A stretch of DNA of 64,000 bases, taken from positions 50,106-114,105 of the forward strand of contig CACWLA010000002.1 in NCBI GenBank assembly GCA_902761665.1, written 5' to 3'. How positions within the stretch are numbered: the stretch's first letter is position 1; each line of letters begins with the position of its first letter. This DNA comes from an uncultured Lachnospiraceae bacterium. Its GTDB lineage: Bacteria; Bacillota; Clostridia; Lachnospirales; Lachnospiraceae. Of this stretch, positions 1 through 21,792 are shown in pieces. A program made the position numbers and the translations under genes. The notes beneath the pieces are model-generated. The model had not been told where the DNA came from. It was given only the letters and a program-made list of their open reading frames with translations, and made no database searches.

Positions 1-216
1 TGCCGCGCCATCGGCAAGAAGGAAGAAAACTGCGCCTACGTAGGCGACAACCCCATCCGCGACGTGCAGGGGACCCGCGACGCCGGTTTCGCACTGATGA
101 TCCGCATCGACGAGCCGGACACGATCGCGAAGGAACCGCAGGAGATCACCCTGCATCCGGACTATACGATCACCAGGATATCCGAGCTGCTGGACATCTT
201 CCCGCCGCTTAAGTGA
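1..216 (+). CDS. HAD-like hydrolase, C-terminal fragment (cut by window edge)
   Basis: The reading frame is open from the first base and ends at TGA 214-216, leaving 71 residues. It carries the HAD motif IV signature GDNPIRDVQGTRDAG and a C-terminal tail that resembles those of the next two genes (a domain ending in ...ELLDIFP). It is therefore the third and first-placed member of a tandem set of HAD paralogs. The nucleophile motif lies outside the window, so whether it shares the unusual motif I of its neighbours cannot be seen. The next gene starts 12 bases downstream on the same strand, which suggests the operon extends upstream of the window. Confidence 0.85.
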   Translation, partial: CRAIGKKEENCAYVGDNPIRDVQGTRDAGFALMIRIDEPDTIAKEPQEITLHPDYTITRISELLDIFPPLK

Positions 217-228
217 AAGAAGGACGAC

Positions 229-990
229 ATGGAAAGAGAATTTGATGCGATTTTCTACGATCTGGGCGGCACGCTCCGCCTGGTCGAACGGGATGCAGCC
301 TTTGAGGCCGAAGCCCGCCGCAAGATCGCCGAGATGTGCGGCGAGAAGGGCGATCCCGACGAGTTCTGCAAGTTTCTGGACTACCGCTATGCGGGCTACC
401 GCAAATGGTGCTTCGAGACCATGAAGGAAGCGCCCGAAGAGGAACTGTGGACCAAATGGCTCACGCCCGAATACGACCGCGAACTCATCAAAAAGAACGC
501 GATCGAGCTGACCATCGAATACCGCAACAAGGACGGACGCAGAGTGGTCGCTCCGAACGGCGCGCAGTCCATCAAGGACCTGTACGCGAACGGCTACAAG
601 CTCGGCATCATCAGCAACCTGGTCACCTCGCAGGAGATCCCGCGCTGGCTGAAAGCGGACGGCCTGGAGAAATACTTCGGCGCCGTGCTCCTTTCCTGCG
701 TCGAAGGCATCCGCAAGCCCGATCCGGCCATTTCCAACAAGGCCTGCGACCTCCTGGGCGTAAAACCCGAGCGCTGCGTCTACATCGGCGACAACTTAAA
801 GCGCGACGTCGAAGGCACGCGCCTTGCGGGCTACGGCATGTTCATCCTCTATACCACGCCGGAGAAACTGGCGAAGGAAACGATTACCGACGAGAACCGG
901 CCTGACGCCGTCATCTTCGATTTCAATGAGCTGAAGGAGATCTTCCCGGCAGCGCCGCACGTGGCCTGGGACAAGATAAGGAGAGTCTGA
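229..990 (+). CDS. HAD-superfamily hydrolase, paralog 2
   Basis: This 253-residue HAD-fold protein is probably a cytosolic phosphatase or phosphate-transfer enzyme of unknown substrate. Motif I is YDLGGT with the nucleophile Asp11, but the usual acid/base Asp two residues later is Gly13. Motif II Ser129 (IISN), motif III Lys163 (RKPDP) and motif IV Asp188/Asp193 (GDNLKRD) are all present. E. coli YihX, an active phosphatase, also has Gly at the +2 position as I recall it, so the loss does not prove inactivity. A helical cap lies between motifs I and II. It is co-directional with and 1 base from the next paralog, and an AAGGAC Shine-Dalgarno precedes the ATG. The neighbouring PGK/PGM genes suggest a phosphorylated C3-C6 acid or sugar substrate, which is an inference. 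Confidence 0.85.
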   Translation: MEREFDAIFYDLGGTLRLVERDAAFEAEARRKIAEMCGEKGDPDEFCKFLDYRYAGYRKWCFETMKEAPEEELWTKWLTPEYDRELIKKNAIELTIEYRNKDGRRVVAPNGAQSIKDLYANGYKLGIISNLVTSQEIPRWLKADGLEKYFGAVLLSCVEGIRKPDPAISNKACDLLGVKPERCVYIGDNLKRDVEGTRLAGYGMFILYTTPEKLAKETITDENRPDAVIFDFNELKEIFPAAPHVAWDKIRRV

Positions 991-991
991 G

Positions 992-1750
992 ATGGAAAAT
1001 ATCAAAGCGATCTTCCTGGATCTGGGCGGTACCTTCCGCATCGTGGAGGAGAACGAACCCTTCTATCATGCCGCGCGCGTCCGCATCGCGGAGATCTGCG
1101 GGACGGACATGGATCCTGATGAATATTACGCATTCCTGAACAGGCGCTATGACGAGTACCGCAAATGGGCCCTGCGCTTCATGTGCGAGGCGCCGGAGAA
1201 GGTCCTGTGGACCCGCTGGCTGGTGCCGGAACTGGACCGGGAATACATTGAAAAGAACGCCGTGGAACTGACCTATCAGTTCCGCCGCGCGAAGGGTGAG
1301 CGCGTGGTCGTTCCGGGCGGCATCGAGACCGTACGGGAGCTGCGGGCGCGCGGCTACAAGGTCGGCATCATCAGCGACCTCGTCGGAACGGTCGAGATCG
1401 ACGAATGGCTGGATAAGGACGGCATCCGCGATCTCTTCTGCACCGTACAGCAGTCTTCCGTGACCATGCTGCGGAAGCCTCATCCGGCAATTTACTACCT
1501 GGCTCTGGACGAGGCGGGCGTGCGGCCTGAGGACAGCGTATTCGTCGGCGACAACTTAAAGCGCGACATCCTCGGTGCGAAACAGACCGGCTTCGCGGGC
1601 ACGGTGGCGGCGGACTATCCGGGCGGTCTCCCCATGACCTTCAATGAAGAAAACAAGCCCGACTGCTTCATCCATCATTTTAACGAACTGCTGGACCTGT
1701 TCCCCGGTGAAGGAAAATACCTTCCGGAACGCGGCGAAAGGAGAGACTGA
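992..1750 (+). CDS. HAD-superfamily hydrolase, paralog 3
   Basis: A 252-residue paralog of the preceding gene with the same architecture. It shares the PDE(F/Y) cap segment, the YRKW block and motif IV GDNLKRD. Motif I is LDLGGT with nucleophile Asp10 and again Gly instead of the second Asp. It starts one base after the upstream stop codon, with GGAG in the upstream gene's last codons as ribosome binding site, so translational coupling is likely. Having three diverged copies side by side suggests either different substrates or a hetero-oligomer. Family assignment is firm; the substrate is unknown. Confidence 0.85.
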   Translation: MENIKAIFLDLGGTFRIVEENEPFYHAARVRIAEICGTDMDPDEYYAFLNRRYDEYRKWALRFMCEAPEKVLWTRWLVPELDREYIEKNAVELTYQFRRAKGERVVVPGGIETVRELRARGYKVGIISDLVGTVEIDEWLDKDGIRDLFCTVQQSSVTMLRKPHPAIYYLALDEAGVRPEDSVFVGDNLKRDILGAKQTGFAGTVAADYPGGLPMTFNEENKPDCFIHHFNELLDLFPGEGKYLPERGERRD

Positions 1751-1756
1751 CAGACC

Positions 1757-3322
1757 ATGAGCAAATACCTGAAAGCCGGCGGCGAAGCCCTGGCGAAAGC
1801 GGTGGAGAAAGTCTATGAGAGCGGGAAGACGGATTACCATCTGGAACCGCTGAACCTTTGGGAAGGCGGCGCGCCCGTCGGGACCGTGAAGCCCGGCGAC
1901 GGCGTCATTTTCTGCTGCCGCAGAGGAGAGCGCGAGGTCGAACTGACCGACGCGTTCACGGATCCGGCATTTCCGGGATTTTCGCGGGAAAAGATTGAAC
2001 CTCTGGATTTCGTGATCCTGACGATGTACAATGAAAAATACACCTACCTGCCGATCGCCTTCGCCCCGTCCAAGGTGCAGATGGGCCTCGCGCAGGTCCT
2101 TTCCGAAGCCGGGAAGACCCAGCTGCATCTGGCTGAGAGTGAAAAATACGCCCACGTCACCTTCTTCTTCAACGGCGGCAACAATACGCCCTACGCAGGA
2201 GAGGATGATATCCGCGTCCCTTCGCCGAAGGGCGTGGCCTTCGAGACCGTGCCGGAACTGAGCCTGCCGAAAGTGGCGGAAACGCTCGGGGATGCACTGC
2301 GGAAGGGCTATGACTTCATCGTGACGAACTTCGCGAACGGCGACGTCATCGGCCATACCGCAAGCGACGATGCAAAGCGTAAGGCCGTCACGGCGGTAGA
2401 CAAATACCTCGGCGAGACCCTGAAGACCGCCCGCGAAGAAGGCTATACCGTCTTTGTGACCGCCGACCACGGCAACATTGAGACCCTTCGGACCGGCGAC
2501 GGCAAGCCTCACGGGGCGCATACCACGAACCTGGTCGCGATAAGCGCCGTGGGCGAGGGCGTAAGACGCCTCACGAACCGCGGAAAACTCTGCGACGTCG
2601 CGCCGACCGTCCTGTCCGCGATGGGGCTTCCGCAGCCGAAGGAAATGACCGGTTCACCGCTTTTCGCTTTCGAGAAGACCGGCGGCAAGGTCCTGCTCCT
2701 CATCCTGGACGGCTGGGGACTGGATTCCCCGACGAAGGACAATCCGCTTGCGACCGAGCCGATGCCGGTATGGAATGCGTTAGTCAGCGAAAACCCGACG
2801 GCGCAGCTCGATGCATCCGGTCCCGCCGTAGGCCTGGCGGAAGGCAAGACCGGCAACTCCGAAGCCGGCCACATCAACCTCGGCTCCGGCCGCGTGGTCC
2901 TGCAGGACGACGTCCGTCTGGACAACGCGATGAAGGACGGTTCCTTCTATGAGAATCCCGTCTTCCTGAAGACCATCCGGGACGTGAAGGCCCGCGGCGG
3001 CGCGCTGCACGTGCTGGGGCTCCTCACGAAGAAGTCCTCGCACGGCTCGGTGGATTATCCGCTCGGCGTGCTGAAGATGGCGGAAGCGGAAGGCCTGAAA
3101 GAGGTGTACGTGCACGTGATCTTCGACGGCCGCTCCACGCAGCCCGGCAGCGCACCTGCGCTTCTCAGGGAGTTCGGGGGACAGATCGAGGAGATCGGTT
3201 CCGGCATCATCGTTTCGGGCGTAGGCCGCGGCGTCGCGCTGGACCGCGACCAGAACTGGGCCAAGGTCGAGCGGGCCTACCGCTCCCTGACCGAGGGCAA
3301 AGGCGAAGTTTACGGAGAATAA
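1757..3322 (+). CDS. Circularly permuted cofactor-independent phosphoglycerate mutase homologue
   Basis: At 521 residues this is the size of GpmI, but the halves are swapped. Residues about 15-310 match the canonical C-terminal three fifths (late transferase domain, then phosphatase core) and residues about 312-521 match the canonical N-terminus. Using remembered Geobacillus GpmI numbering, the metal-site residues all map: Asp12/Ser62 to Asp318/Ser368 (spacing 50 kept), Asp403/His407 to Asp196/His200, Asp444/His445 to Asp237/His238 and His462 to His255. Substrate residues His123, Arg153, Arg185 and Arg191 map with the same +306 offset to His429, Arg459, Arg491 and Arg497. Lys336 maps to Lys130 and Arg261/Arg264 to Arg56/Arg59. 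Asp154 is replaced by Ser460. An intact active site suggests a working phosphomutase; the changed residue leaves the substrate open. It lies 6 bases after the HAD gene. Confidence 0.85.
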   Translation: MSKYLKAGGEALAKAVEKVYESGKTDYHLEPLNLWEGGAPVGTVKPGDGVIFCCRRGEREVELTDAFTDPAFPGFSREKIEPLDFVILTMYNEKYTYLPIAFAPSKVQMGLAQVLSEAGKTQLHLAESEKYAHVTFFFNGGNNTPYAGEDDIRVPSPKGVAFETVPELSLPKVAETLGDALRKGYDFIVTNFANGDVIGHTASDDAKRKAVTAVDKYLGETLKTAREEGYTVFVTADHGNIETLRTGDGKPHGAHTTNLVAISAVGEGVRRLTNRGKLCDVAPTVLSAMGLPQPKEMTGSPLFAFEKTGGKVLLLILDGWGLDSPTKDNPLATEPMPVWNALVSENPTAQLDASGPAVGLAEGKTGNSEAGHINLGSGRVVLQDDVRLDNAMKDGSFYENPVFLKTIRDVKARGGALHVLGLLTKKSSHGSVDYPLGVLKMAEAEGLKEVYVHVIFDGRSTQPGSAPALLREFGGQIEEIGSGIIVSGVGRGVALDRDQNWAKVERAYRSLTEGKGEVYGE

Positions 3323-3375: not shown

Positions 3376-4392
3376 ATGATCAATGTTGGCATCATCGGAG
3401 CCGGCCGCATCGGCCAGGTCCACATGAAGAGCATCATGACCGGCGTACCGCAGGCGAAGGTCCTTGCCGTTGCCGATCCTTACATGAAACCCGAGGTCGC
3501 TGCGTGGCTGGAAAACGCGGGCGTGGAGAAGATCACGAAGGACTATCGCGAGATCCTGGACGATCCCCGCATCGACGCGGTCCTCATCTGCGCCTCCACC
3601 GACCAGCATGCACCGCTGTCCATCGAAGCGATCCGCGCCGGCAAGCACGTCTTCTGCGAAAAGCCTGTCGACCACTCGCTTGAGAGGATCGAAGAGGTGA
3701 AGGCCGCGCTTGAAGCTTCCCCGAAGAAGATCAAATACCAGGTCGGCTTCAACCGCCGCTTCGACCACAACTACCGCGCGATCCGGAAGGCCGTCGAGGA
3801 CGGAAAGATCGGCAAAGTTGAATTCATCCGCATCAGTTCCCGCGACCCCGAACCGCCGTCGCCTGCCTACGTGGCCGTATCCGGCGGCATCTTCCTCGAC
3901 ATGATGATCCACGACCTTGACATGCTGCGCTATCTTTCCGGCGATGAGGTCGAAGAGGTGACGGCTTACGGCGCGAACCTCGTGGATCCCGAGATCGGGA
4001 AGGCCGGCGATGTGGACACCGTCGTCATTTCCGCAAAGCTGAAAAGCGGCGCGCTTGCCGCGATCGACGGCTGCCGCAAGGCGGTCTACGGCTACGACCA
4101 GCGCGGCGAAGTTTTCGGCTCGAAGGGCTGCATCACGAGCAGCAACGACGCCGCGAACAACACAGTGCTTTCCACGGCGGACGGCATCATTTCTGAAAAA
4201 CCGCTCTGGTTCTTCCTGGAACGCTACATGGGCGCCTACCAGGAAGAGATCAGGAGCTTCATCGACTGCATCGTGAACGATACCGAACCCGAAGCCGGGA
4301 TCGAAGCCGGCCTCATCTCCGTGAAGCTGGCGATCGCCTGCAAAAAGTCCATGGATGAGCACCGCGCGGTCCGGATCGACGAGATCAAATAA
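3376..4392 (+). CDS. iolG: myo-Inositol 2-dehydrogenase (IolG family)
   Basis: NAD-dependent oxidoreductase of the GFO/IDH/MocA family, 338 residues, catalysing the first step of inositol catabolism (myo-inositol to 2-keto-myo-inositol). The N-terminal Rossmann fold starts with GIIGAGRIG. Lys96 in the EKP motif and the Asp175-x3-His179 pair (DMMIHD) are the family's catalytic residues, and the C-terminal half is the substrate domain. The ATG is preceded by AAGGAG at 3359-3364. The IolG assignment over a generic family oxidoreductase rests on length, motif set and co-transcription with iolE, iolB and iolD. A scyllo-inositol or other polyol dehydrogenase role remains possible. Confidence 0.85.
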   Translation: MINVGIIGAGRIGQVHMKSIMTGVPQAKVLAVADPYMKPEVAAWLENAGVEKITKDYREILDDPRIDAVLICASTDQHAPLSIEAIRAGKHVFCEKPVDHSLERIEEVKAALEASPKKIKYQVGFNRRFDHNYRAIRKAVEDGKIGKVEFIRISSRDPEPPSPAYVAVSGGIFLDMMIHDLDMLRYLSGDEVEEVTAYGANLVDPEIGKAGDVDTVVISAKLKSGALAAIDGCRKAVYGYDQRGEVFGSKGCITSSNDAANNTVLSTADGIISEKPLWFFLERYMGAYQEEIRSFIDCIVNDTEPEAGIEAGLISVKLAIACKKSMDEHRAVRIDEIK

Positions 4393-4409
4393 TCCAGGAG
4401 GAAATCATT

Positions 4410-5462
4410 ATGGCAAAAGTCAGAGTCGGCGTAGCCGGTTACGGCACCATCGGGCAGCGCCTCGCGGACGGCGTCGCCATGCAGGGAGACATGGAACTGG
4501 TCGGGATCGCGGATCTCGTTCCTTCGCTTTCCATCCGCGCGCTGCGTGAAAATGACATGATCGGCGCGAACGATGTGGAATACAAGCTCTATCTGGTCGA
4601 CGGAGCTGATCCCGCGGCCTTCGCAAAGTACGACATCCCCGTCGCCGGGACCTTTGAAGACCTGTGCAGGAACGTGGACATCATGCTCGACTCCTCCCCG
4701 GGCGGCGTCGGCGCGAAGAACAAGCTGATCTACGAAAAACTCGGCGTCAAGGCCGTCTTCCAAGGCGGCGAAGCCAATTCCGTGGCGGACGTCTTTTTCC
4801 ACGGCTACGCCAACTACGAAAAGGGTGTGGGCGTCGATTACCTGAAACTGACGAGCTGCAATACGACCGGCCTCATCCGGACCGTGGATGCGCTTGACCG
4901 CGCCATCGGCATCGAAAAGGTCGCGATCACGATCATCCGCCGCGTGGCCGATCCGGGCGACTATCACCGCGGACTGACGAACGCCCTGCAGATCGACAAG
5001 GCGCCGTCCCACCAGGCACTTGACCTGATGACCATCATGCCGCACGTGGAAGCGACCGGCATCCTTGTCCATACGCCGGTCACCCACGGCCACATCATCA
5101 CCGTGCTGGCGACGGCAAAGGACGGAAAGAAGATCACCCGCGAGCAGGCGCTCGAAGTCTTCCGCGCGCATCCGCGCATCCGCACCGTCACCATCGACGA
5201 GGGCTTCAAGGGCAATGCATCTTTGTTCAAATATGCCCGGGATCTCGGCAACCGCCGCGGCGACATGTATGAAATCGGCCTCTGGGAAGACAGCATCGTG
5301 GAAAGCGGAAACGACATCATGTACGCGATCAACATCCCGCAGGAGAGCGTCACGATCCCCGAGACCATGGACGCGATCCGCGCCGCGATGAAGATGCAGC
5401 TGACCCGCGAAGAGGGCACTGCCGAGACCAACAAATATCTGAAGATCGGCCGTTTCAAATAA
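4410..5462 (+). CDS. Type II (archaeal-type) glyceraldehyde-3-phosphate dehydrogenase homologue
   Basis: A 350-residue protein that matches the archaeal type II GAPDH family rather than bacterial GapA. It has an N-terminal Rossmann motif GVAGYGTIGQR, the conserved GGVGAKNK and QGGEA blocks, and the active-site SCNTTGL with Cys150. Downstream conserved segments IRRVADP, KAPSHQ and the RDLGNRRGDMYEI block follow the archaeal pattern. The family oxidises D-glyceraldehyde 3-phosphate to 1,3-bisphosphoglycerate with NAD(P). AGGAGG lies 8 bases before the ATG, and the gene is 17 bases after iolG and 16 before the PGK gene. Pairing with an archaeal-type PGK suggests they form an oxidation/ATP-generating couple. 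Whether the aldehyde is GAP itself or an inositol-derived analogue cannot be told from sequence. Confidence 0.85.
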   Translation: MAKVRVGVAGYGTIGQRLADGVAMQGDMELVGIADLVPSLSIRALRENDMIGANDVEYKLYLVDGADPAAFAKYDIPVAGTFEDLCRNVDIMLDSSPGGVGAKNKLIYEKLGVKAVFQGGEANSVADVFFHGYANYEKGVGVDYLKLTSCNTTGLIRTVDALDRAIGIEKVAITIIRRVADPGDYHRGLTNALQIDKAPSHQALDLMTIMPHVEATGILVHTPVTHGHIITVLATAKDGKKITREQALEVFRAHPRIRTVTIDEGFKGNASLFKYARDLGNRRGDMYEIGLWEDSIVESGNDIMYAINIPQESVTIPETMDAIRAAMKMQLTREEGTAETNKYLKIGRFK

Positions 5463-5478
5463 GGCCGGAGGGAGAACG

Positions 5479-6729
5479 ATGCGCTTCGGGATCAGAACGC
5501 TGGACGAGATCGATGTGAAAGGAAAAACGGTCCTGTGCCGGGTGGACATCAACCAGCCGGTGGACCGCGAAAAGGATGCCCTGAAAAGCATCAACCGGAT
5601 CCGGGCCTGCGTGCCGACGGTCCGGGAACTTGCGGATAAGGGCGCGAAGCTCGTGCTCATGGCGCACCAGGGCAGCGACATCGAATATAAGAATTTCTAC
5701 ACGACGAGGCCGCACGCGAAGGTCCTTGCCGAACTGCTCGGCAGGGAGGTGAAATGGATCGACGACGTCTGCGGCCCCGCCGCCCGCGAAGCGATCCGGG
5801 CCCTTAAGGAAGGGGAGATCCTCCTTCTCGACAACGTGCGCTTCGTCGCGGAGGAACAGACCCTCTTCGAAATGAAGCTGCGCCTGACCCACGAGCAGCA
5901 GGCAAAGACCCTGCTCGTGGAAAAACTCGCACCGCTCGCGGATCTCTACGTCTGCGACGCTTTCGCAGCCGCACACCGCGACCAGCCGAGCCTCTGCGGC
6001 TTCGAGCAGGTCCTGCCTTCGGCCATGGGGCGGCTTTTCGAACAGGAATACTGCACCGTTTCCGGCGTGATGGAAGCGCCGGAGCGTCCCTGCGTCTTCG
6101 TGCTCGGCGGCGCCAAGATCTCCGATGCCTTCCGCATGATGGAGACCGTGCTTTCGCGCGGCACCGCGGATGAGATCCTGACCGGCGGCCTCGCCGCGAA
6201 CATTTTCCTGATCGCGCTCGGAAAGAAGATCGGAAAGGGAAGCGAAGATTTCATCGAAGCCTCCAACTACACCGAATTCTACCCGAAGGCGAAGGAACTG
6301 TACGAGGCGTACGGGGATAAGATCGTGCTGCCTGAAGACCTCGCCTGGACGGAAGACGGGCTGCGGAAAGAGGCGGCGGTCGGGGAGATCCCGGACGGCG
6401 CCGCAGCCGTGGACATCGGTTCACGGACGGCAGTCCTGTACCGGGAGAAGATCCTGGCGGCAAGGACGGTCTTCGTGAACGGACCCATGGGCGTCTTTGA
6501 GAAGCCGGAGACCGAACTCGGCACGAAGGCGGTCTGGCAGGCACTGGCGGATACGGAAGGTTTCACCGTGGTCGGCGGCGGCGACTCGATCGCCGCGACC
6601 GAGAAGTACGGCATGACGGATAAGATGGGCTATATCTGCACGGGCGGCGGCGCGCTCATCCGCTTCTTAAGCGGTGAGGAACTGCCGGTCGTGAAGGCAC
6701 TCAGGCACGGCTCGCAGTTGCCGCTGTAA
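5479..6729 (+). CDS. Phosphoglycerate kinase homologue, archaeal type
   Basis: This 416-residue protein has the two-domain PGK layout. The N-terminal acyl-phosphate domain has RVDINQP, NRIRA, His63, LLDNVRF and DAFAAAHR. The C-terminal nucleotide domain has GGAKISD, NGPMGVFE and GGGDSIAA. Overall wording (AHQ, DAFAAAHRDQPS, FLSGEELPV near the C-terminus) follows archaeal PGKs. Of the basic residues that hold 3-phosphoglycerate in classic PGKs, the Arg of the HxGRP motif is replaced by Ser66 and a short insertion follows (residues about 66-76). The others are present. That could shift substrate preference. The start has GGAGG eight bases upstream, and the gene sits 16 bases after the GAPDH gene. 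Confidence 0.85.
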   Translation: MRFGIRTLDEIDVKGKTVLCRVDINQPVDREKDALKSINRIRACVPTVRELADKGAKLVLMAHQGSDIEYKNFYTTRPHAKVLAELLGREVKWIDDVCGPAAREAIRALKEGEILLLDNVRFVAEEQTLFEMKLRLTHEQQAKTLLVEKLAPLADLYVCDAFAAAHRDQPSLCGFEQVLPSAMGRLFEQEYCTVSGVMEAPERPCVFVLGGAKISDAFRMMETVLSRGTADEILTGGLAANIFLIALGKKIGKGSEDFIEASNYTEFYPKAKELYEAYGDKIVLPEDLAWTEDGLRKEAAVGEIPDGAAAVDIGSRTAVLYREKILAARTVFVNGPMGVFEKPETELGTKAVWQALADTEGFTVVGGGDSIAATEKYGMTDKMGYICTGGGALIRFLSGEELPVVKALRHGSQLPL

Positions 6730-6758
6730 ATACGACGTACTGACGAAGGAGACGGACA

Positions 6759-8012
6759 ATGAAGCTGCGCTACGGTTTCGGAAACGGTTTTCAGGAAGTG
6801 GAGGTCCCGGAGAAGAATCTCATCGGGGAACTCCATGCGAACCCTGTGCCGCCGGGACTTCCGGAGGCGGAGGAGGTCGCCCGCGCCCTGCGCGAACCGA
6901 TCGGTACCCCGCGTCTGCGGGACATCGTGCATCCGGGAGAGAAGATCGCCGTCATCACGAGCGACGTTACCCGTCCCATGCCGACGGCGAAGGTCATGCC
7001 GCTCCTTCTGGACGAACTGTACGCCGGCGGCGTGAAGCCGGAGGACATCACCCTCGTTTTCGCCCTGGGAAGCCACAGACGCCAGAGCGATGAAGAACAC
7101 CGGCGCCTTGCCGGCGAACGCGCCTTCCGCGAGATCCGCTGCATCGACAGCGATCCGGATGACTGCGTTTCCTACGGGAAAACGTCCTACGGAACGCCGG
7201 TCGACATGACGCGAACTGTTGCGGAGGCGGACAGAAGGATCTGTCTCGGCAATATTGAATATCACTACTTTGCCGGATACTCCGGCGGCGCCAAGGCGGT
7301 CATGCCCGGCTGCTCCACGCGGGCGGCCATCCAGGCGAACCACAGCCGCATGATCCTGCCGGAATGCTGTGCGGGATCGCTGGAGAACAATCCGCTCCGC
7401 CATGACATCGAAGAAGCCGGCAGAATGGTCGGCATCGATTTCATCCTGAACGTGGTCCTGTCGGAGCACAAGGAGATCCTGAAGGCCGTGGCCGGCGATC
7501 CCGTGCTTGCGCACCGTGAGGGCTGCGCTTTCCTGGATAAGCTGTACCGCATCGAACTGCAGGAGGCTGCGGACATCGTCCTGGTCTCGCAGGGCGGAGC
7601 GCCGAAGGACCTGAACCTCTACCAGACGCAGAAGGCGCTGGACAACGCGAAGCATGCCGTAAAGGACGGCGGCATCATCATCCTGATCGGCTCCTGCCGG
7701 GAAGGCCTCGGGGAAAAGACCTTCGAGGAATGGATGACGGCGGCGCCCACGGCCCGGTCCCTGATCGAGCGGATCCGCCGCGAATTCAGGCTCGGCGGCC
7801 ATAAGGCGGCAGCCATCGCGATGGTGCTGGAGCGCGCGGAAGTGGACCTCGTCAGCGAACTGGACGACGATTTCGTCCGCTCGATCTTCCTTGAACCGCA
7901 GCCTTCGGCGCAGGCGGCGCTCGACCGCGCCTTTGCAAAACTCGGCCCGGACGCGCGCGTTCTCAGCATGCCGTACGGCGGCTCGACCCTGCCGAAGATC
8001 GTCCGGAAATGA
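6759..8012 (+). CDS. LarA-family nickel-pincer 2-hydroxyacid racemase/epimerase
   Basis: A 417-residue protein with the full LarA layout. His106 lies in GSHR, and His169 lies in EYHYFAGYSGGAK with Lys179, the lysine expected to link the nickel-pincer cofactor. His195 follows in NHSRM. The spacings 169-179-195 equal the 174-184-200 spacing of lactobacillar LarA as I recall it. LarA homologues racemise lactate or epimerise C2 of other 2-hydroxyacids, so the substrate is open. LarB, LarC and LarE, which make the cofactor, are not in the window. Its place between PGK and iolE suggests a hydroxyacid made in this pathway, for example a glycerate or aldonate. Confidence 0.85.
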   Translation: MKLRYGFGNGFQEVEVPEKNLIGELHANPVPPGLPEAEEVARALREPIGTPRLRDIVHPGEKIAVITSDVTRPMPTAKVMPLLLDELYAGGVKPEDITLVFALGSHRRQSDEEHRRLAGERAFREIRCIDSDPDDCVSYGKTSYGTPVDMTRTVAEADRRICLGNIEYHYFAGYSGGAKAVMPGCSTRAAIQANHSRMILPECCAGSLENNPLRHDIEEAGRMVGIDFILNVVLSEHKEILKAVAGDPVLAHREGCAFLDKLYRIELQEAADIVLVSQGGAPKDLNLYQTQKALDNAKHAVKDGGIIILIGSCREGLGEKTFEEWMTAAPTARSLIERIRREFRLGGHKAAAIAMVLERAEVDLVSELDDDFVRSIFLEPQPSAQAALDRAFAKLGPDARVLSMPYGGSTLPKIVRK

Positions 8013-8020
8013 TATTCTGC

Positions 8021-8070
8021 GGCAGGCTCCGGCCTGCCCGAAAAGAAAAGGGACCGCCCCGGGACGGTCC
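8021..8070 (+). other. Two hairpins between larA-like gene and iolE
   Basis: Two back-to-back inverted repeats fill the 72-base gap: GGCAGGC/GCCTGCC at 8021-8038 and GGACCG/CGGTCC at 8051-8070. Neither is followed by a T-run, so they do not look like terminators. They could be processing or stability elements that set different levels for the upstream and downstream halves of the operon. Confidence 0.5.
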
Positions 8071-8084
8071 GAAGGAGCATGAGC

Positions 8085-8993
8085 ATGCGCTTATTCGACC
8101 CTGAAAAAGTAAAACTCGGCATCGCCCCCATCGGCTGGTGCAATGACGACATGCCGGAACTCGGCGCAGAGAATACCTTCCGTCAGACGGTGAGCGAAAT
8201 GGCACTCGCCGGTTTCACGGGCTGCGAGATCGGCAACAAATATCCGAAGGATCCTGCCGAACTGAAGTGGGAACTGGATCTGCGCGGCATGCGGATCGCG
8301 AGCCGCTGGTTTTCTTCCTTCCTGCTGACGAAACCTCTGGAAGAAAACCTGGCGGACTTTGAGAAGGAACTGGATTTCCTCGCGGCCGTAGGCGCCGACC
8401 GGATCAACGTATCGGAGCAGAGTTGGTCGATCCAGGGAAAGACGGACGTCCCCATCCTGACCGGCGGCTTTAAGCATGTGATGAACGATGAGGAATGGGA
8501 GCGGCTCTGCAGCGGCCTCGACGCCCTCGGCAAGGCGGCGGCGGAGCGGGGCTTCAAACTCTGCTACCACCACCATATGGGGACCGTGGTCCAGACTGCG
8601 GCCGAAACGGACCGCATGATGGCAAATACCGATTCGCGCTATGTGTTCCTGTGCTACGACACCGGCCACTTTACCTTCGCGGGCGAGGATCCCCTGGCCA
8701 TGCTGAAAAAATATGTGGACCGCGTGGGGCACGTGCATCTGAAGGATATGCGCCTGGACGTCGTCAGGCAGGCGCGGGAAAACGGCTGGAGCTTTCTTCA
8801 GGCCGTGCGCGAAGGCGCATTCACGGTACCGGGCGACGGGGACGTCGATTTCGACCCGGTCTTCCGTCTGCTTTCGGAAGCCGGCTACGAAGGCTGGCTG
8901 CTCGTCGAGGCGGAACAGGATCCGGCGAAGGCGAATCCGCTGGAATATGCCATCAAGGGACGCCGCTACATCGCGGAACATACGGGACTGTAA
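8085..8993 (+). CDS. iolE: Inosose dehydratase (IolE family)
   Basis: A TIM-barrel protein of the sugar phosphate isomerase/epimerase superfamily, 302 residues. It starts GIAPIGWCNDD and has the YHHHMGT and HVHLKDMR strands that carry metal ligands. IolE removes water from 2-keto-myo-inositol to give 3D-trihydroxycyclohexane-1,2-dione. Two in-frame ATGs occur (8079 and 8085). The second is chosen because AAGGAG at 8072-8077 lies seven bases from it but only one base from the first. iolB follows after 13 bases. Confidence 0.88.
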   Translation: MRLFDPEKVKLGIAPIGWCNDDMPELGAENTFRQTVSEMALAGFTGCEIGNKYPKDPAELKWELDLRGMRIASRWFSSFLLTKPLEENLADFEKELDFLAAVGADRINVSEQSWSIQGKTDVPILTGGFKHVMNDEEWERLCSGLDALGKAAAERGFKLCYHHHMGTVVQTAAETDRMMANTDSRYVFLCYDTGHFTFAGEDPLAMLKKYVDRVGHVHLKDMRLDVVRQARENGWSFLQAVREGAFTVPGDGDVDFDPVFRLLSEAGYEGWLLVEAEQDPAKANPLEYAIKGRRYIAEHTGL

Positions 8994-9006
8994 GGAGGAA
9001 GAACAG

Positions 9007-9798
9007 ATGTATCTGAACAAGGAACTGCACCGCGGATACAATGCCTATATCGATACGGCGGAAGATGATCTGGGAACGCGCATGGACGTGGGGCTCCTCG
9101 TCATGGAAGCCGGCGACGAATACTGCATCGATGACCCGGTGAAGGAGACGGCGGTCCTTCTTTTTGAAGGAAACGTGACGTTCCGGTATGCGGACAGGGA
9201 AGTCCGCGCCGAACGCCCCGACTGCTTCCGCCATGAGGCGTACTGCCTGCTGGCGCCCCGCCGCACCCGCATCGAGATCCTTGCGGAAAGCCACGCGGAA
9301 CTCTACATCCAGCAGACGGACAACGACCGCGATTACGAGCCGGTCATGTATACGCCGGAGACCGTCCAGACCCAACACGCCGGCAATAACGGCGAGCTCA
9401 TGGGCTGCATGCGCCGCGAGATCAAGACCTTCTTCGACTACGACAACGCGCCGTTTTCGAACATGGTCCTCGGCGAGGTCCTGAACTATCCGGGCAAATG
9501 GTCCTCCTACCCGCCGCATTACCATCCGCAGCCGGAGGTCTACTTCTACCGTTTCGACTATCCGAACGGCTTCGGCGTGGGCTTTGCGAACGGACAGGTC
9601 CACAGGACCGGCCACAACGGCTGCCTCGTCATCAACGAAGGCATGCACTCCCAGGCGGCGGCGCCTGGCTATGCCATGTGCTATTCCTGGGGCATCCGCC
9701 ATCTGGAAGGCGACCCGTGGCTGAAGACCCGCATTGATGAAAAAGAACACGAATGGCTCTGGAAAGCCGATGCCAACGAACATATCTTTCAAGGCTGA
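9007..9798 (+). CDS. iolB: 5-deoxy-glucuronate isomerase (IolB)
   Basis: A bicupin-fold protein of 263 residues matching IolB, which isomerises 5-deoxy-D-glucuronate to 2-deoxy-5-keto-D-gluconate. The C-terminal cupin contains SSYPPHYHPQPEVYFYRF, with the histidines and glutamate expected to bind metal, and later HRTGHN and MHSQAAAPGYAMCYSWGIRH. The start at 9007 is preceded by AAGGAGGAA. An in-frame upstream ATG at 8947 lies inside iolE and is not needed. It sits between iolE and iolD. Confidence 0.9.
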   Translation: MYLNKELHRGYNAYIDTAEDDLGTRMDVGLLVMEAGDEYCIDDPVKETAVLLFEGNVTFRYADREVRAERPDCFRHEAYCLLAPRRTRIEILAESHAELYIQQTDNDRDYEPVMYTPETVQTQHAGNNGELMGCMRREIKTFFDYDNAPFSNMVLGEVLNYPGKWSSYPPHYHPQPEVYFYRFDYPNGFGVGFANGQVHRTGHNGCLVINEGMHSQAAAPGYAMCYSWGIRHLEGDPWLKTRIDEKEHEWLWKADANEHIFQG

Positions 9799-9822
9799 TG
9801 CTGCAGCAGTAAGGAGGGAAAG

Positions 9823-11745
9823 ATGAAGACAGTCCGCCTGACCATGGCACAGGCCCTGGTCCGTTTTCTGGAAAATCAGTACATTGCCTATGACGGGAAG
9901 GAAGATCCCTTTGTCGAAGGCGTGATCATGCTCCCGGGCCACGGCAACGTGGTCGGCCTCGGCCAGGCGCTCCGGCAGGAGACCCGCCGCCTCAAGGTCT
10001 GGCAGGGCAAGAATGAGCAGGGCATGGCGCACACCGCCGTGGCCTACGCGAAGCAGATGAAGCGGAAGAAGATCATTGCCGTGACGTCTTCCGTCGGCCC
10101 CGGCGCCGCCAACATGGTCACCGCTGCTGCGACGGCGACTGCGAACAACATCCCGGTCCTGATTCTGCCCGGCGACGTCTACGCCTGCCGCCAGCCGGAC
10201 CCGGTACTGCAGCAGATCGAGCAGACACAGGACCTGTCCATCTCCACCAACGATGCGTTCCGGGCGGTCTGCCGCTACTGGGACCGCATCGTGCGGCCTG
10301 AGCAGCTGATGAGTGTGATGATCTCGGCCTTCCGTACTCTGACCGATCCGGCGAATACCGGCGCGGTCTGCATTGCGATCCCGCAGGACGTCGAAGGCGA
10401 AGCCTATGACTATCCCGAATCCTTCTTCGCGAAACGCGTCTGGCGGCTCGCAAGGCGCCTTCCCGAAGCAGAAGCGGTCGCCGAAGCGGCTGAAGTGATC
10501 CGCGCGGCGAAGAAGCCGCTCCTCATCTGCGGCGGAGGTGTCCGCTACAGCGAGGCGCACGAAGAGTTCCGGACCTTTGCCGAAGCGACGGGCATCCCCT
10601 TCGGCGAGACCCAGGCGGGCAAGAGCGCCGTCCCTTACGATCATCCGCTGAACCTCGGCGGCATCGGCGTGACGGGCTGCTCGGCGGCCAATGAGATCGC
10701 GAAGGAAGCGGACGTCATCATCGGCGTCGGCACGCGCTACACCGATTTCACCACCTCTTCAAAGTGGCTGTTCCGCGACGGGGCGAAGTTCGTCAACATC
10801 AACGTGTCTGAATTCCAGGCCCTGAAACTGGACGCCGTGCCGGTCATTGCCGACGCGAAGCGCGCCCTGCCGGCCCTGCTGGCAGCGCTGGACGGCTACA
10901 AGGCGCCGTACGCTGGCGAGATCGAGGCCGCAAGAGAGCGCTGGGCGAAGGAACTGGACCGCCTGCAGCATACCGCCTACGGCGAAGGGTATGTCCCCGA
11001 GGTCAACGACGCGAACGCCGCCTCCGCGGACCGCTTCGCTAAGGATCTGGATGCCTGCCTGACCCAGACCGCGGTGCTCGGCGCCATCAACTTTGCGATC
11101 GATCCGGACGACGTCGCCATCGGCTCCGCCGGCTCCCTTCCGGGCGACATGCAGCGCATGTGGTGCGCGCGGGGCGTTGATACCTACAACATGGAATACG
11201 GTTATTCCTGCATGGGCTATGAGATCTCCGGCGCCCTGGGCGTCAAGTACGCGATCGGCGACCGCGATGTCTATGCCATGGTCGGCGACGGGAGTTTCGT
11301 CATGCTGCATTCCGAGCTGCTGACGGCGGTGCAGGAGCATAAGAAGATCAATGTCTGCGTGTTCAACAACGCTTCCTTCGGCTGCATCAACAACCTGCAG
11401 GTCGGCCACGGCAACGACACCCTCTGCACCGAACTGCGCTTCCGCGGCGATGACGGTGAGCACTCCGGGAAATTCATGCCGGTCGATTTCGCAAAGATCG
11501 CCGAAGGCTACGGCTGCCGTGCTTTTACGGTACGCTCCATGGAAGATCTCACGGCGGCGCTTGCCGAGGCGAAGAAGATCAAAGACGTTCCGGTGGTCTT
11601 CGACATCCGGGTCCTGCCCAAGTCCATGACGGACGGCTACGGCTCCTGGTGGCGCGTGGGAGATACCGAGGTCTCCGAAAACCCGAGAAACGTCGCGGCT
11701 TACGAAGACCATCTGGCTCACGTGAAGGACGCGAAGAAATACTGA
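9823..11745 (+). CDS. iolD: 3D-(3,5/4)-trihydroxycyclohexane-1,2-dione hydrolase (IolD)
   Basis: A thiamine-diphosphate enzyme of 640 residues with the acetohydroxyacid synthase-like three-domain plan. The N-terminal PYR domain has the catalytic Glu65 in NEQGMAH, a central domain has the [13 protein letters not shown] segment, and the C-terminal PP domain carries GDGSF...[10 protein letters not shown] for ThDP/Mg2+. IolD opens the inositol ring to give 5-deoxy-glucuronate. It is the last gene of the run and is followed by a strong terminator. TAAGGAGGG precedes the ATG. Length and order support IolD over other ThDP enzymes. Confidence 0.9.
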
Positions 11746-11918: not shown

Positions 11919-13529
11919 ATGAAAGCAATCTGGTACAACGGAAAAGTATATACGGGAGACGAAACGCTGCAGCAGGCTTTCCTCGTGCAGGACGGCCTGT
12001 TCCGCGCGGTCGGAAATGATGCGGAGATCCTGGCGCTCGCCGATGCGGATACGGTCCGTACGGACCTCGCGGGGCGCTTTGTCTGCCCCGGCTTCAACGA
12101 TTCGCACATGCATCTGTTGGGCTTCGGCCAGTCACTCGGCGCCGCCCGGCTTGCGGAACATACGGGAAGCCTTGCGGAACTCCTTGCCTATCTTCGGGAG
12201 TACGCTGCGGAAAATCCGCCGCGCGAAGGAAGGTGGCTCCGGGGACGCGGCTGGAATCAGGACTATTTTGCCGACACTTCCCGCATGCCGGACCGTCATG
12301 ACCTGGATGCGGTCTCGGCAGAATTCCCCATCCTCATCTCCCGCGCCTGCGGGCACTGCTGCGTTGTCAATTCGCGTGCCCTGGAACTGGCCGGGATCGG
12401 CCCGGATACCCCGTCTCCGGAAGGGGGTAGGATCGGTATGGAGAACGGCGTTCCGGACGGAAGGCTGTATGACAATGCCATCGAACTCGTCAGCGCCTGC
12501 ATTCCGGAACCGGATAAGGAAGAGATCAAGGACCTGATCCGGCGGGCCTGCCGCGCCCTGAATGCCTATGGGATAACGAGCGTGCAGACCGACGATTACA
12601 GCACGTTCCGCGGCGTGCCGTTCGAAACCGTGAATGCCGCATACCGGGAACTGGAGGAAAGCGGCGAACTGAGCGTCCGCGTGTACGAACAGGCGAATTT
12701 CACGGATACGGAGGAACTGCGGCGCTTCATTGAAGCCGGAAACGTCACCGGGACCGGCAGCCGGATGTTCCGCATCGGGCCGCTGAAGATGCTGGGGGAC
12801 GGCTCGCTCGGGAGCCGTACGGCGTGGCTTTCCCGCCCCTATGCCGACGATCCCGGAACTTCGGGCTTTCCGCTTTTCAGCAGGGAGAAGATGGAAGAAA
12901 TGATCAGCCTGGCCAATGAAAGCGGCATGCAGATCGCCGTCCACGCGATCGGCGACGCCTGTCTGGACCAGGTCCTGAATGCCCTGGAAAAGGCGCTGCG
13001 GGAGCATCCGCGCAGGGATCACCGCCACGGCATCGTACACTGCCAGATCTCGCGCCCCGACCAGCTCCGCCGCATCCGGGAGCTCGGTCTTCACGTCTAC
13101 GCCCAGTCCGTCTTCCTTGATTACGACAATCATATCGTAGAAAAACGGGTCGGTCCGGAACTTGCCGCGAGCAGTTACGCCTGGAAGACCCTGATGAGAA
13201 GCGGCGTTTCGGTCTCGAACGGCTCGGACTGTCCGGTCGAGGCGCCGGACGTGATGCGCGGGATCGAATGCGCGGTCACGCGCACCTCGCTGGACGGAAC
13301 CGGCCCTTACCTGCCGCAGGAGGCCTTCACGCTCCGGGAGGCGCTTGACAGCTTCACCGTCCGCAGCGCCGAGGCGAGCTTTGAAGAGAATTTCAAGGGA
13401 CGGATCGCACCGGGTTTTGCGGCCGACTTTACGGTACTGGAGGAAGATCCCTCCACGAAAGAGCCGCGGGCGCTCCACACGATCCGGGTGAATGCCTGTT
13501 ATCTCGGCAGAAAAAACTTTTTATCATAA
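11919..13529 (+). CDS. Amidohydrolase family protein, YtcJ-like
   Basis: A 536-residue metal-dependent amidohydrolase of the YtcJ/N-substituted formamide deformylase group. The N-terminal beta-sandwich ends in FVCPGFNDSHMHL, where the HxH metal pair sits. Next come CGHCCVVNSRALE, KMLGDGSLGSRTAW with the barrel lysine, VHAIGDA, HGIVHCQ and a C-terminal SNGSDCPVEAPD aspartate. The C-terminus returns to the sandwich (GFAADFTVLEEDP). Substrates in this group are diverse and mostly unknown. GGGAGG lies eight bases before the ATG. It stands between two terminators or leaders and so is probably monocistronic. Confidence 0.8.
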   Translation: MKAIWYNGKVYTGDETLQQAFLVQDGLFRAVGNDAEILALADADTVRTDLAGRFVCPGFNDSHMHLLGFGQSLGAARLAEHTGSLAELLAYLREYAAENPPREGRWLRGRGWNQDYFADTSRMPDRHDLDAVSAEFPILISRACGHCCVVNSRALELAGIGPDTPSPEGGRIGMENGVPDGRLYDNAIELVSACIPEPDKEEIKDLIRRACRALNAYGITSVQTDDYSTFRGVPFETVNAAYRELEESGELSVRVYEQANFTDTEELRRFIEAGNVTGTGSRMFRIGPLKMLGDGSLGSRTAWLSRPYADDPGTSGFPLFSREKMEEMISLANESGMQIAVHAIGDACLDQVLNALEKALREHPRRDHRHGIVHCQISRPDQLRRIRELGLHVYAQSVFLDYDNHIVEKRVGPELAASSYAWKTLMRSGVSVSNGSDCPVEAPDVMRGIECAVTRTSLDGTGPYLPQEAFTLREALDSFTVRSAEASFEENFKGRIAPGFAADFTVLEEDPSTKEPRALHTIRVNACYLGRKNFLS

Positions 13530-13549
13530 GAAAAAAACACTTTTCTGAA

Positions 13550-13579
13550 TTGACAATGCGCCTGCCGCTGTGGTACCTT
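13550..13579 (+). promoter_or_regulatory. Candidate promoter of the purine operon
   Basis: TTGACA (13550-13555) is followed after 17-18 bases by a weak -10 (GTACCT or TACCTT). The -35 is perfect but the -10 matches poorly. Position just upstream of a structured leader supports the call. Confidence 0.45.
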
Positions 13580-13589
13580 TGTGGTGGTT

Positions 13590-13692
13590 CCTTTAAGGCG
13601 ATGCGAGACATCGGCAAGGCTCATTCAGTTTGTAAGGTGTTCCCGGCTCCCAGAAATGATCATTTCTTTTTCGCGCCGGGATTTTTGTTTTT
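13590..13692 (+). promoter_or_regulatory. Structured leader with attenuator upstream of purE, PyrR-like in outline
   Basis: The leader has CCTTTAAGGC, then a small hairpin (CGATG/CATCG, loop CGAGA, 13599-13613), then GGCAAGG, and about 30 bases later an intrinsic terminator. The terminator stem is TCCCGGC 13641-13647 with GCCGGGA 13675-13681, and the T-rich tail runs 13682-13692. An inner palindrome AGAAATGATCATTTCT (13652-13667) lies in its loop. The outline (CTTTAAGGC, hairpin, AAGG, terminator) matches the clear PyrR leader at 61235-61357, but the loop is not the PyrR consensus. It could bind PyrR weakly, bind another ligand, or be an unrelated attenuator. Confidence 0.5.
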
Positions 13693-13727
13693 CAGGACAC
13701 CGTAATCACAGAGGAGAAGAGGCAAAA

Positions 13728-14210
13728 ATGAAGAAAGTCGGGATCGTAATGGGAAGCGCAAGTGACCTGCCGGTGGTGAAAAAGGCGGCAGACGTCCTCG
13801 CGGAGTTCGGCGTACCGTATGAGATGCACATTTATTCGGCGCACAGGACGCCGGACGAGGCGCGGGATTTCGCGCGGAGCGCAAGGGAAAACGGTTTCGG
13901 CGTGCTCATTGCGGCAGCCGGCATGGCAGCGCATCTGGCCGGGGCGATCGCGGCGAATACCACGCTTCCCGTGATCGGGATCCCCTGCAAAAGCGCAGCC
14001 CTTGAGGGCATGGATGCCCTGCTCGCCACGGTACAGATGCCGTCCGGCATCCCGGTGGCAGCGGTTGCGATCGACGGTGCGAAGAACGCGGCGTTCCTGG
14101 CAGTCGAGATCCTCGCGGTCACGGACGGGGAACTTTCCGATAAGCTTGCGGCCCACCGCCGCAGACAGGCGGAAGAGGTCCTGGCAAAGGACCGCGAACT
14201 GAACGCGTAA
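13728..14210 (+). CDS. purE: N5-carboxyaminoimidazole ribonucleotide mutase (PurE)
   Basis: 160 residues, normal for class I PurE. It contains the N-terminal [13 protein letters not shown] phosphate loop, SAHRTPDEA and [11 protein letters not shown], which form the CAIR binding site of the octamer. It interconverts N5-CAIR and CAIR; the PurK partner is not in the window. The start at 13728 is set by GAGGAGA at 13711-13717 and by the family N-terminus. Longer in-frame starts fall inside the leader. First gene of the purine operon. Confidence 0.93.
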
Positions 14211-14292
14211 GAAGGCAAAAACAGCAGGCCGGAAGCGCGGAAGGCGCCGGGCTGCCGATCAAGCAATAAATAAAAAACGGGAGATAAAACGC

Positions 14293-14973
14293 ATGAAGCT
14301 GATCTACACGGGTAAGACAAAGAATGTTTACGCAATGGACAACGGCCACTATCTGCTGAAGTTCAAGGATGACTGCACCGGCAAGGACGGCGTGTTCGAT
14401 CCGGGTGAAAACAGCATCGGCCTGACCATCGAAGGCGTCGGCGACGTGAACCTTCGGATGTCGATATATTTCTTCGAAAAGATCAATGCGGCCGGGATCC
14501 CGACCCACTACGTGAGCGCGGATCTTGCAAATACCACCATGGAAGTGCTGCCTGCGAAGGTCTTCGGCAAGGGCCTCGAAGTCATCTGCCGCTACAAGGC
14601 CGTCGGCAGCTTCCTGCGCCGCTACCGCGACTACGTGGAAGAAGGCGCAGACCTTCCTGCCTACGTGGAAATGACCTTCAAGAACGACGCCCTCGGCGAC
14701 CCGCTGGTCACGAAGGACGGCCTGATCGTTCTCGGCGTGATGAGCGCGGAACAGTATGACGCGATCAAGGAAGAGACCCAGAAGATCACGGCGATCGTGG
14801 CAGAAGAGATGAAAGCCCGCGGCCTCGACCTTTACGATATCAAGTTCGAGTTCGGCTATGACGCCGACGGCAACGTGATGCTGATCGATGAGATCGCCTC
14901 CGGCAACATGCGCGTCTACAAGGACGGCGCCTACATCGATCCCATGACGCTCTCCGAGCTGTTCTTTGCCTGA
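14293..14973 (+). CDS. purC: SAICAR synthetase (PurC)
   Basis: 226 residues, matching PurC, which ligates aspartate to CAIR using ATP. It begins with the ATP-binding [14 protein letters not shown] and has [10 protein letters not shown], the [14 protein letters not shown] block and [14 protein letters not shown] near the C-terminus. The stop overlaps the purF start (TGATG). An 82-base gap separates it from purE, and GGGAGAT precedes the ATG. Confidence 0.93.
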
Positions 14974-17437: not shown

Positions 17438-18036
17438 AGAAGACCGTTTCCGGGATCACGGCGGGCCTCCTCATCAGCCTCGGCGGCACGGTATTTCTGG
17501 CGGCCGAGAACAAGGTGGTCGGCGCGGTCGCCTTTACGATAGGCCTCCTCAGCATCTGTTACTACGGGCTTTCCCTCTATACGGGCAAGGTCGGCTATCT
17601 TTTCGAAAAACACGATAAGGAAGCTTTTTCCGTGCTGTTTCTGGGACTTCTCGGGAACACCGTCGGGACGGTCGTCTGCGGCCTTCTGCTGCGCGTCTGC
17701 CGGCCTGCCGTCGCGGAAAAGGCGGAAAGCATATGCGCCGCGAAACTCGGGCTGGATCCGCTGAACGTGTTCCTGCTCGGCTGTTTCTGCGGCATTCTTG
17801 TTTATGTTGCGGTCAATCTGTTCCGCGACAAAAAGACCGTATTGGGCATCCTCATCGGGATCCCGGTCTTCATTCTGAGCGGTTTCGAGCATTCGATCGC
17901 GGATATGTTTTACATGGCGGCGGCCGGAGAATTTTCGCTCCGGGCGCTTGTTTTCATCCTGTTGGTCATTGCCGGGAACAGTGTCGGCGCGCTGGTCTTT
18001 GACCGGCTGCTGCATTTATCCGGCGTGAAGAAATAA
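17431..18036 (+). CDS. Formate/nitrite transporter family channel, compact
   Basis: 201 residues with six predicted membrane segments in the FNT order. The most telling segment is the fifth, ending SGFEHSIADMFYM, which matches the FNT filter helix. The second helix ends in YTGK, near the FNT hallmark TGN. FocA-type proteins usually have 260-280 residues, so this one has short termini and loops. It starts inside purM and is followed by purN after 10 bases. The purine pathway consumes formyl groups twice, so formate import feeding formyl-tetrahydrofolate is the natural inference. Confidence 0.8.
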   Translation: MLKKTVSGITAGLLISLGGTVFLAAENKVVGAVAFTIGLLSICYYGLSLYTGKVGYLFEKHDKEAFSVLFLGLLGNTVGTVVCGLLLRVCRPAVAEKAESICAAKLGLDPLNVFLLGCFCGILVYVAVNLFRDKKTVLGILIGIPVFILSGFEHSIADMFYMAAAGEFSLRALVFILLVIAGNSVGALVFDRLLHLSGVKK

Positions 18037-18046
18037 GGAGTGGGGC

Positions 18047-19299: not shown

Positions 19300-19302
19300 G
19301 CG

Positions 19303-20481: not shown

Positions 20482-20509
20482 TCAATCAAAACGACGGGAG
20501 ACCACCGAC

Positions 20510-21778: not shown

Positions 21779-21792
21779 AGCGGAGAGAAACT

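Follow-up and report, generated by a model that had tools for sequence, protein, structure and literature searches.

A conserved, circularly permuted relative of phosphoglycerate mutase encoded among HAD-family and inositol genes in an uncultured Lachnospiraceae bacterium

The window analysed here, a stretch of 64,000 nucleotides from an uncultured Lachnospiraceae bacterium, encodes a relative of the cofactor-independent phosphoglycerate mutase GpmI in which the two halves of the chain appear in exchanged order. It raises the question of whether this order is genuine and, if so, what such a protein (cpGpmI) does in a locus that also carries genes for HAD-family enzymes and inositol catabolism. 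The gene and its parts are as follows.

1757..3322, + strand: cpGpmI, circularly permuted GpmI-type enzyme of 521 aa; open frame with an ATG start, profile and structure-sequence matches
1799..2665, + strand: cpGpmI residues 15-303, equivalent to canonical GpmI 219-509; holds Arg56, Arg59, Lys130, Asp196, His200, Asp237, His238 and His255
2666..2689, + strand: linker between the former C- and N-termini
2690..3313, + strand: cpGpmI residues 312-519, equivalent to canonical GpmI 6-213; holds Asp318, the nucleophile Ser368, His429, Arg459, Ser460 (the Asp154 position), Arg491 and Arg497

The best phmmer match of cpGpmI among solved structures is GpmI (PDB 1ejj), which aligns in two stretches of swapped order, residues 15-303 with 219-509 and 312-519 with 6-213 (E 6.9e-106). 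The NCBIfam model TIGR01307 has the same swap, its best stretch pairing residues 12-303 with model positions 213-504, and in Pfam the best Metalloenzyme stretch covers residues 102-292 and iPGM_N covers 389-517. Compared in its native order with the canonical GpmI of its own host, cpGpmI gives two hits (15-303 with 218-509, and 313-518 with 6-211); rotated, it gives a single hit of 40.5% identity over 516 columns (E 9.4e-124). The new ends lie between canonical residues 213 and 219, and the old ends are joined via a short linker, the length of which differs among cpGpmI members. The archaeal-type aPGM (TIGR00306, PF10143) and phosphopentomutase share the metalloenzyme superfamily with cpGpmI, with a weak local match and scores far below the cut-off.

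An AlphaFold2 model of the whole protein, built from 53 of the 81 aligned cpGpmI sequences, has a mean pLDDT of 91.1 and a pTM of 0.81. Foldseek, which keeps the chain order, aligns about half of its length to iPGMs without stating which half (1o99: 275 columns, TM 0.48, E 2.4e-19), and all 22 matches at E <=0.001 are iPGMs. Residues 311-521 were also modelled on their own from 33 sequences, with low confidence (mean pLDDT 68.8); the 22 matches of this model at E <=0.001 are again iPGMs, the best being 1o98 with 205 columns and an rmsd of 12.9.

The permuted order is widespread. Scanning species genomes yielded 148 pattern matches, 98 of them encoding a relative, and the best 80 loci were kept and fetched; a few are truncated by contig ends, and a single genome accounts for two of them (L018, L026). 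All 80, clustered and aligned with the window protein, have the permuted order, and they are spread over Bacillota, Spirochaetota and Chloroflexota. The permuted gene is present on a complete chromosome (CP102272.1, from C. asparagiforme, L077) and on isolate contigs as well. A tree of 34 permuted sequences, out of the 81 aligned, and 38 canonical sequences is divided by a branch of 100/100 support into a permuted and a canonical side; the tree analysis warns of long branches meeting between the permuted group and the canonical rows of greatest divergence (three), so the place where the permuted group is rooted remains unsettled. A plasmid search returned 44 records, all below 60% identity; at least ten of them are joined from two pieces each, and at least six are annotated gpmI or gpmM. 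The open-access literature searched, which excludes most subscription journals, yielded no account of GpmI being circularly permuted in nature. The permutation wording in PMC2876114 and PMC6957218 concerns proteins other than GpmI, and a survey of bacterial PGMs (PMC2964296) calls iPGM paralogues rare and does not contain 'permut'.

The two-metal/Ser phosphatase site of cpGpmI is intact. The metal ligands Asp196, His200, Asp237, His238, His255 and Asp318, the nucleophile Ser368, and Arg56, Arg59, Lys130, His429, Arg459 and Arg491 are invariant in all 81 aligned cpGpmI sequences, and Arg497 is kept in 80. The Asp154 equivalent, Ser460, is Ser in 81/81, and the same position is Asp in all 32 rows of the canonical comparison set (31 distinct genes, the host protein having been entered twice). 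Many other positions that are fixed in canonical enzymes are fixed to a different letter in cpGpmI, several of them beside catalytic residues; the pocket swaps, in host canonical numbering, are G119K, G120S, V121S, S123G, H127Y, Y185G, N257C and F258R. An argument from charge is weak, because basic residues are both gained in the pocket (Lys426, Arg55) and lost from it (host R193, R327, R354, H124, H127). The residue numbers and roles assigned to this site are those that we take to be valid for the G. stearothermophilus enzyme, apart from points in PMC5382265, the source for the metal ligands of the C. elegans enzyme, and PMC12077085, the source for His462.

The preliminary description, made from the sequence alone, had read 1757-3322 as a circularly permuted GpmI, and this held: the phmmer and profile stretches are swapped, rotation yields one alignment and the order recurs in the fetched loci. 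Its residue equivalences (Asp318, Ser368, His429, Arg459, Ser460, Arg491, Arg497, Asp196, His200, Asp237, His238, His255) all held too. Its statement that only Asp154 differs held in part, being true for the named catalytic residues and false for the pocket, with its many fixed changes. It had also raised the doubt that the gene order results from misassembly; the search for homologues rules this out, because many assemblies (80 loci) and the complete chromosome CP102272.1 carry the permuted order. The structure prediction that it proposed was run, and the order-keeping Foldseek search pairs about half of the whole model with iPGMs, with no permuted superposition behind it. cpGpmI is a conserved circularly permuted GpmI paralogue, as is shown for both the permutation and the conserved metal/Ser site, and it offers a natural test of how permutation affects a two-domain enzyme that needs to open and close.

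Annotation by the TIGR01307 cut-off would name cpGpmI a glycolytic mutase, because its summed score over the two stretches is 471.1 bits and the cut-off is 330.65; in the genome search the two stretches appear as separate matches of 273.8 and 200.2 bits, both below it. The host genome also has a full-length canonical GpmI, on contig C34, together with a second PGK gene on the same contig. All 25 other carrier genomes examined have the split permuted signature, two of them in two copies (G209, G218), and in 19 of the 25 a canonical GpmI of full length also passes the family cut-off. One more (G212) has a partial match, and in five (G201, G211, G214, G215, G219) no canonical GpmI was found beyond weak local matches. 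Relative to canonical GpmI/iPGM (TIGR01307; PDB 1ejj, 1o98), cpGpmI retains the two parts of the chain, every metal ligand, the nucleophilic Ser and most of the Arg, His and Lys residues of the site; it differs in the order of the halves, in having Ser for Asp154, in its rebuilt pocket, in its HAD/importer neighbourhood and in coexisting with a canonical GpmI, as seen in the host and in 19 of the 25 other carriers. We infer that the job of cpGpmI is probably not the glycolytic one that databases would assign to it.

The neighbouring genes of the window are these.

1..216, + strand: HAD-family gene, 3' end, motif I DVGNT, in the same presumed operon as cpGpmI (whole gene at L084:13600-14319, in the coordinates of the fetched host locus)
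229..990, + strand: HAD-family hydrolase, motif I DLGGT, with Gly for Asp at D+2
992..1750, + strand: HAD-family hydrolase, motif I DLGGT, immediately 5' of cpGpmI
3376..4392, + strand: IolG, inositol 2-dehydrogenase, over the NCBIfam cut-off
4410..5462, + strand: type II (archaeal-type) glyceraldehyde-3-phosphate dehydrogenase paralogue (GAPDH-II), over cut-off
5479..6729, + strand: phosphoglycerate kinase (PGK) paralogue, profile match
6759..8012, + strand: LarAH6-type nickel-dependent malate racemase, over cut-off
8079..8993, + strand: IolE, myo-inosose-2 dehydratase, over cut-off
9004..9798, + strand: IolB-like 5-deoxy-glucuronate isomerase, 83 bits, below the 205-bit cut-off
9823..11745, + strand: IolD, over cut-off

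Gene content of the 80 loci was counted by heuristic gene picking from codon usage, by which some HAD genes were extended or truncated, and families were annotated via representatives; many loci end at contig edges. HAD genes are the most constant companions, occurring in 73 loci, four of them in 38 loci, five in 16 and fewer elsewhere. A HAD gene lies immediately 5' of cpGpmI on the same strand in 71 loci, with three more ending at a contig edge and six having another neighbour. A LacI regulator is found in 52 loci, a PfkB-like (TM0415-like) kinase in 48, IolG in 30, an ABC permease and a binding protein in 27 each, and a PHP protein and GAPDH-II in 26 each. PGK occurs in 24, including two (L033, L034) on the other strand with 39% identity to the window PGK; IolE occurs in 21, IolB, IolD and LarA in 20 each, MgtC in 18, the split transketolase subunits in 16 and 15, H+-pyrophosphatase in 15 and malic enzyme in nine. 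At least one of IolE, IolB, IolD and GAPDH-II is in the fetched flank of 26 loci. In C. asparagiforme and Erysipelotrichaceae, the importer near cpGpmI is of a different kind, and neither HADs nor iol genes accompany them.

The HADs of these loci have an atypical motif I. In the host locus they lie at L084:142-900 and 12766-15093 and at window positions 1-1750. Gly stands at D+2 in all 265 readable sequences (of 273), in contrast to the Asp-x-Asp of classical HAD phosphatases, in which this position is usually the acid/base Asp. The motif III Lys (272/273) and motif IV Asp (271/273) are kept, and motif II has Ser/Thr in 208 and Ala in 63 of 271. Some of these HADs are perhaps not ordinary phosphatases, because the D+2 Asp is absent and, in a group of 63, Ala additionally replaces the usual Ser/Thr of motif II. 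Some active HADs, such as E. coli YihX, have Asp-x-Gly. A HAD_2 search of the host genome found 13 genes, five of them at the cpGpmI locus; of the eight outside it, motif I could be read in five, as four Asp-x-Asp and one Asp-x-Gly. The phosphotransfer enzymes of the locus are alike in lacking an acidic residue (Asp at D+2 in the HADs, Asp154 in cpGpmI), and by inference a highly anionic substrate may explain both cases.

The kinase gene of the host locus (L084:9984-10874, - strand) encodes a homologue of TM0415, matched over residues 8-290 of 297 (E 1.5e-38). In PMC5931981, TM0415 and two homologues are reported to use PPi as donor for the phosphorylation of myo-inositol, and five key residues are named. 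Four of these, K171, R229, R232 and M266 in positions mapped by us from the pairwise match, are kept in all 49 locus kinases, and F221 is replaced by Leu (25), Val (16) or Ile (8). A gene for H+-pyrophosphatase adjoins that of the kinase in 11 of the 80 loci. Thermotoga combines TM0415 with an iol cluster, and the cpGpmI loci hold a near full-length homologue that lacks only one of its five key donor residues; Thermotoga is not known to have cpGpmI or such a HAD set.

The link to inositol extends beyond the loci with iol genes in their flanks. Among 25 carriers drawn from the 54 loci without IolE, IolB, IolD or GAPDH-II in the flank, 17 have IolE over cut-off elsewhere in the genome. The background was 199 genomes sampled from the phylum of the window, nine of which have IolE, including the genome of the window itself; without it the comparison is 17/25 versus 8/198 (Fisher 7e-14), with related genomes counted as independent and some carriers belonging to other phyla. 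Four of the 17 (G203, G206, G207, G211) carry IolE on the cpGpmI contig, some 11-19 kb away. The iol genes adjoin the importer/HAD/cpGpmI block in L133 (G203) and L134 (G206), and in L135 (G207) they are about 9 kb from the importer, with cpGpmI beyond the fetched piece. IolE over cut-off was not found in the other eight of the 25 carriers (L032, L043, L060, L068, L071, L072, L077, L078); L032 and L043 have the HAD/importer type of locus, and L072, L077 and L078 have another importer and no HADs beside cpGpmI.

No convincing solved relative of the importer's binding protein in the window's genome was found by sequence (best E 0.016), and the importer permease and ATPase resemble PhnU2/PhnT2, ModB, UgpC and PotA below the cut-off. 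The 12-mer GTAAACGTTTGC, a LacI-type operator sequence, precedes both the HAD-importer genes (L084:100-111) and the HAD-cpGpmI genes (L084:12758) in the window's genome, and the second copy comes just after a perfect sigma-70 consensus, TTGACA-17-TATAAT (L084:12720-12769). A copy with one mismatch is near the divergent lacI gene. The operator pattern has four matches in L084, one of them inside a HAD gene, against 0.39 expected, and none of 200 shuffles reaches four; the pattern was derived from one of the sites that it then found, so the shuffle figure is flattering. Across the 64-kb window its three matches are no commoner than chance (20 of 100 shuffles have as many). The claim of a shared operator is confined to the genome of the window, because a AAACGTTT-type palindrome is beside the regulator in just 11 of 53 intergenic regions (two of the 53 being empty). 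The importer, HADs and cpGpmI appear to form one regulon, together with the downstream iol genes if these are in a single operon; the operator copies support this.

The inositol operon at window positions 3376-11745 (also L088/L094) includes GAPDH-II, PGK and the malate racemase. IolC over cut-off was not found in the window's genome (G000; 151.8 versus 300 bits) or in 18 other carriers, 15 of them with the flank genes, plus L042, L061 and L080 (best 199.2 bits). What part of the 80 loci have instead is GAPDH-II, PGK, a split transketolase, the LarAH6 malate racemase and malic enzyme. The split transketolase on contig C28 of the window's genome has 61-75% identity to the locus copies tried (4/16 and 4/15), versus 39-52% for its two other split transketolases with the same copies. 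A variant of inositol catabolism can be envisaged in which 2-deoxy-5-keto-gluconate would be cut by transketolase to malate semialdehyde, which GAPDH-II would oxidise to an acyl phosphate; PGK would then yield ATP and malate, followed by racemisation and malic enzyme. This transketolase-to-malate route is an inference that the gene content suggests. In the open-access literature searched, no paper with both 'myo-inositol' and 'malate semialdehyde' was found.

Taken with these neighbours, cpGpmI may be an intracellular phosphatase or phosphotransferase for inositol phosphates, part of a system for their import and use; the reaction is inferred, with moderate confidence, and no activity has been shown. 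In this view, a LacI-controlled system with an ABC importer would bring in an organophosphate, the likeliest candidates being one or several of the inositol phosphates that phytate breakdown yields, and the Asp-x-Gly HADs, cpGpmI and the TM0415-like inositol kinase would strip or move phosphates inside the cell. Phosphate would go onto Ser368 at the metal pair held by Asp196/His200/His255 and Asp318/Asp237/His238, and water or a different hydroxyl would then accept it, a phosphatase being likelier and a mutase not excluded. Freed inositol would enter IolG-IolE-IolD-IolB. A substrate other than phosphoglycerate fits, because the pocket is rebuilt and Asp154 is lost. The preliminary description had suggested a paralogue with a new substrate and a survey of gene neighbourhoods of permuted homologues. 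The survey was run and found HAD and inositol genes in abundance; with the remodelled pocket and the canonical GpmI that the host and 19 of the 25 other carriers also possess, it supports that suggestion indirectly, and the substrate itself is not shown. The inositol-phosphate reading, also in its bolder version (below), is slightly weakened, and its general-organophosphate rival (below) slightly raised, because the pocket loses basic residues and 63 HADs have Ala at motif II. An inositol-based substrate is possibly not universal, given the C. asparagiforme and Erysipelotrichaceae loci with another importer and no HADs or iol genes.

Classical phytases (PTP-like, histidine acid) belong to different families from cpGpmI and the HADs, and would have in common with them the proposed release of phosphate from inositol phosphates. 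No match to PF14566 or PF00328, the only such families searched, was found at E 0.001 in the host genome, which is 94% complete. In PMC12482443 and PMC7618129, bacterial phytases are described as extracellular or membrane-located, and inositol transporters are mentioned; 'ABC transporter' is absent from PMC12482443. No paper describing this locus, as inositol catabolism with a phosphoglycerate mutase or as ABC/HAD uptake of inositol phosphates, was found in the open-access literature searched. If the inositol-phosphate reading is true, the locus marks intracellular uptake and use of phytate products by gut and rumen bacteria, and it bears on animal phosphorus nutrition.

The rival that survives best is general uptake of organophosphates, such as a sugar phosphate or a phosphonate-like compound, with the link to inositol genes secondary. 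It remains possible. In its favour, the binding protein of L072 (Erysipelotrichaceae) is related to a pyridoxal-phosphate binding protein and to 4r72-4r75, listed as of the Fe3+ type, which we take to be the hexose-phosphate binder AfuA; the importer parts have their sub-cut-off resemblances, the Chloroflexi locus L068 has hexuronate-type genes instead, and IolE over cut-off is missing in eight of 25 carriers. Against it are the TM0415-like kinase in 48 of 80 loci and the co-occurrence with IolE. A bolder version of the inositol-phosphate reading can also be entertained, in which the locus would be an unrecognised intracellular route for phytate products and inositol polyphosphates would be imported whole. 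The HADs and cpGpmI would act without an acid/base Asp, the neighbouring phosphates of the substrate substituting for it; some phosphate would be kept as pyrophosphate by the TM0415-like enzyme and the proton-pumping pyrophosphatase, and inositol would go to malate via transketolase, without IolC.

The remaining alternatives were each set aside as the main reading. As a glycolytic isoenzyme, cpGpmI would join GAPDH-II and PGK in a dedicated lower-glycolysis set for inositol-derived triose phosphate. GAPDH-II in 26 of 80 flanks, mostly with PGK, the retained Arg/His/Lys of the GpmI site, the summed TIGR01307 score above the cut-off and the five carriers without a detected canonical GpmI speak for this. 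It is nonetheless unlikely: Asp154 is lost in every sequence and the pocket is rebuilt, the host and most other carriers examined have a canonical GpmI, and GAPDH-II is unseen in 54 of 80 flanks (some truncated), whereas HADs are seen in 73. Action on a four-carbon phospho-acid, for example moving phosphate on malate or erythronate phosphate, is suggested by the window order cpGpmI-IolG-GAPDH-II-PGK-LarA; it too is doubtful, as cpGpmI goes with HADs more widely than with GAPDH-II, PGK or LarA (20 of 80). Misassembly or a pseudogene, for which only the mostly metagenome-assembled nature of the carriers can be cited, is virtually eliminated by the same order in 80 loci, the complete chromosome and isolate contigs, with open frames and invariant catalytic residues.

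Some further features of these loci stand apart from the question of function. In the Chloroflexi locus L068, a gene for an aPGM-type mutase (L068:11597-12799), a separate protein, lies directly 3' of cpGpmI, and genes of the tagaturonate epimerase and mannonate-oxidoreductase types (hexuronate-type) are nearby. By the importer, L084:5546-6094 encodes a membrane-protein-like family of about 185 aa that is present in 17 of 80 loci and has no Pfam or NCBIfam match. Further along the window, at 13581-25488, is a run of genes that resembles purine biosynthesis, as judged by eye from the translations.
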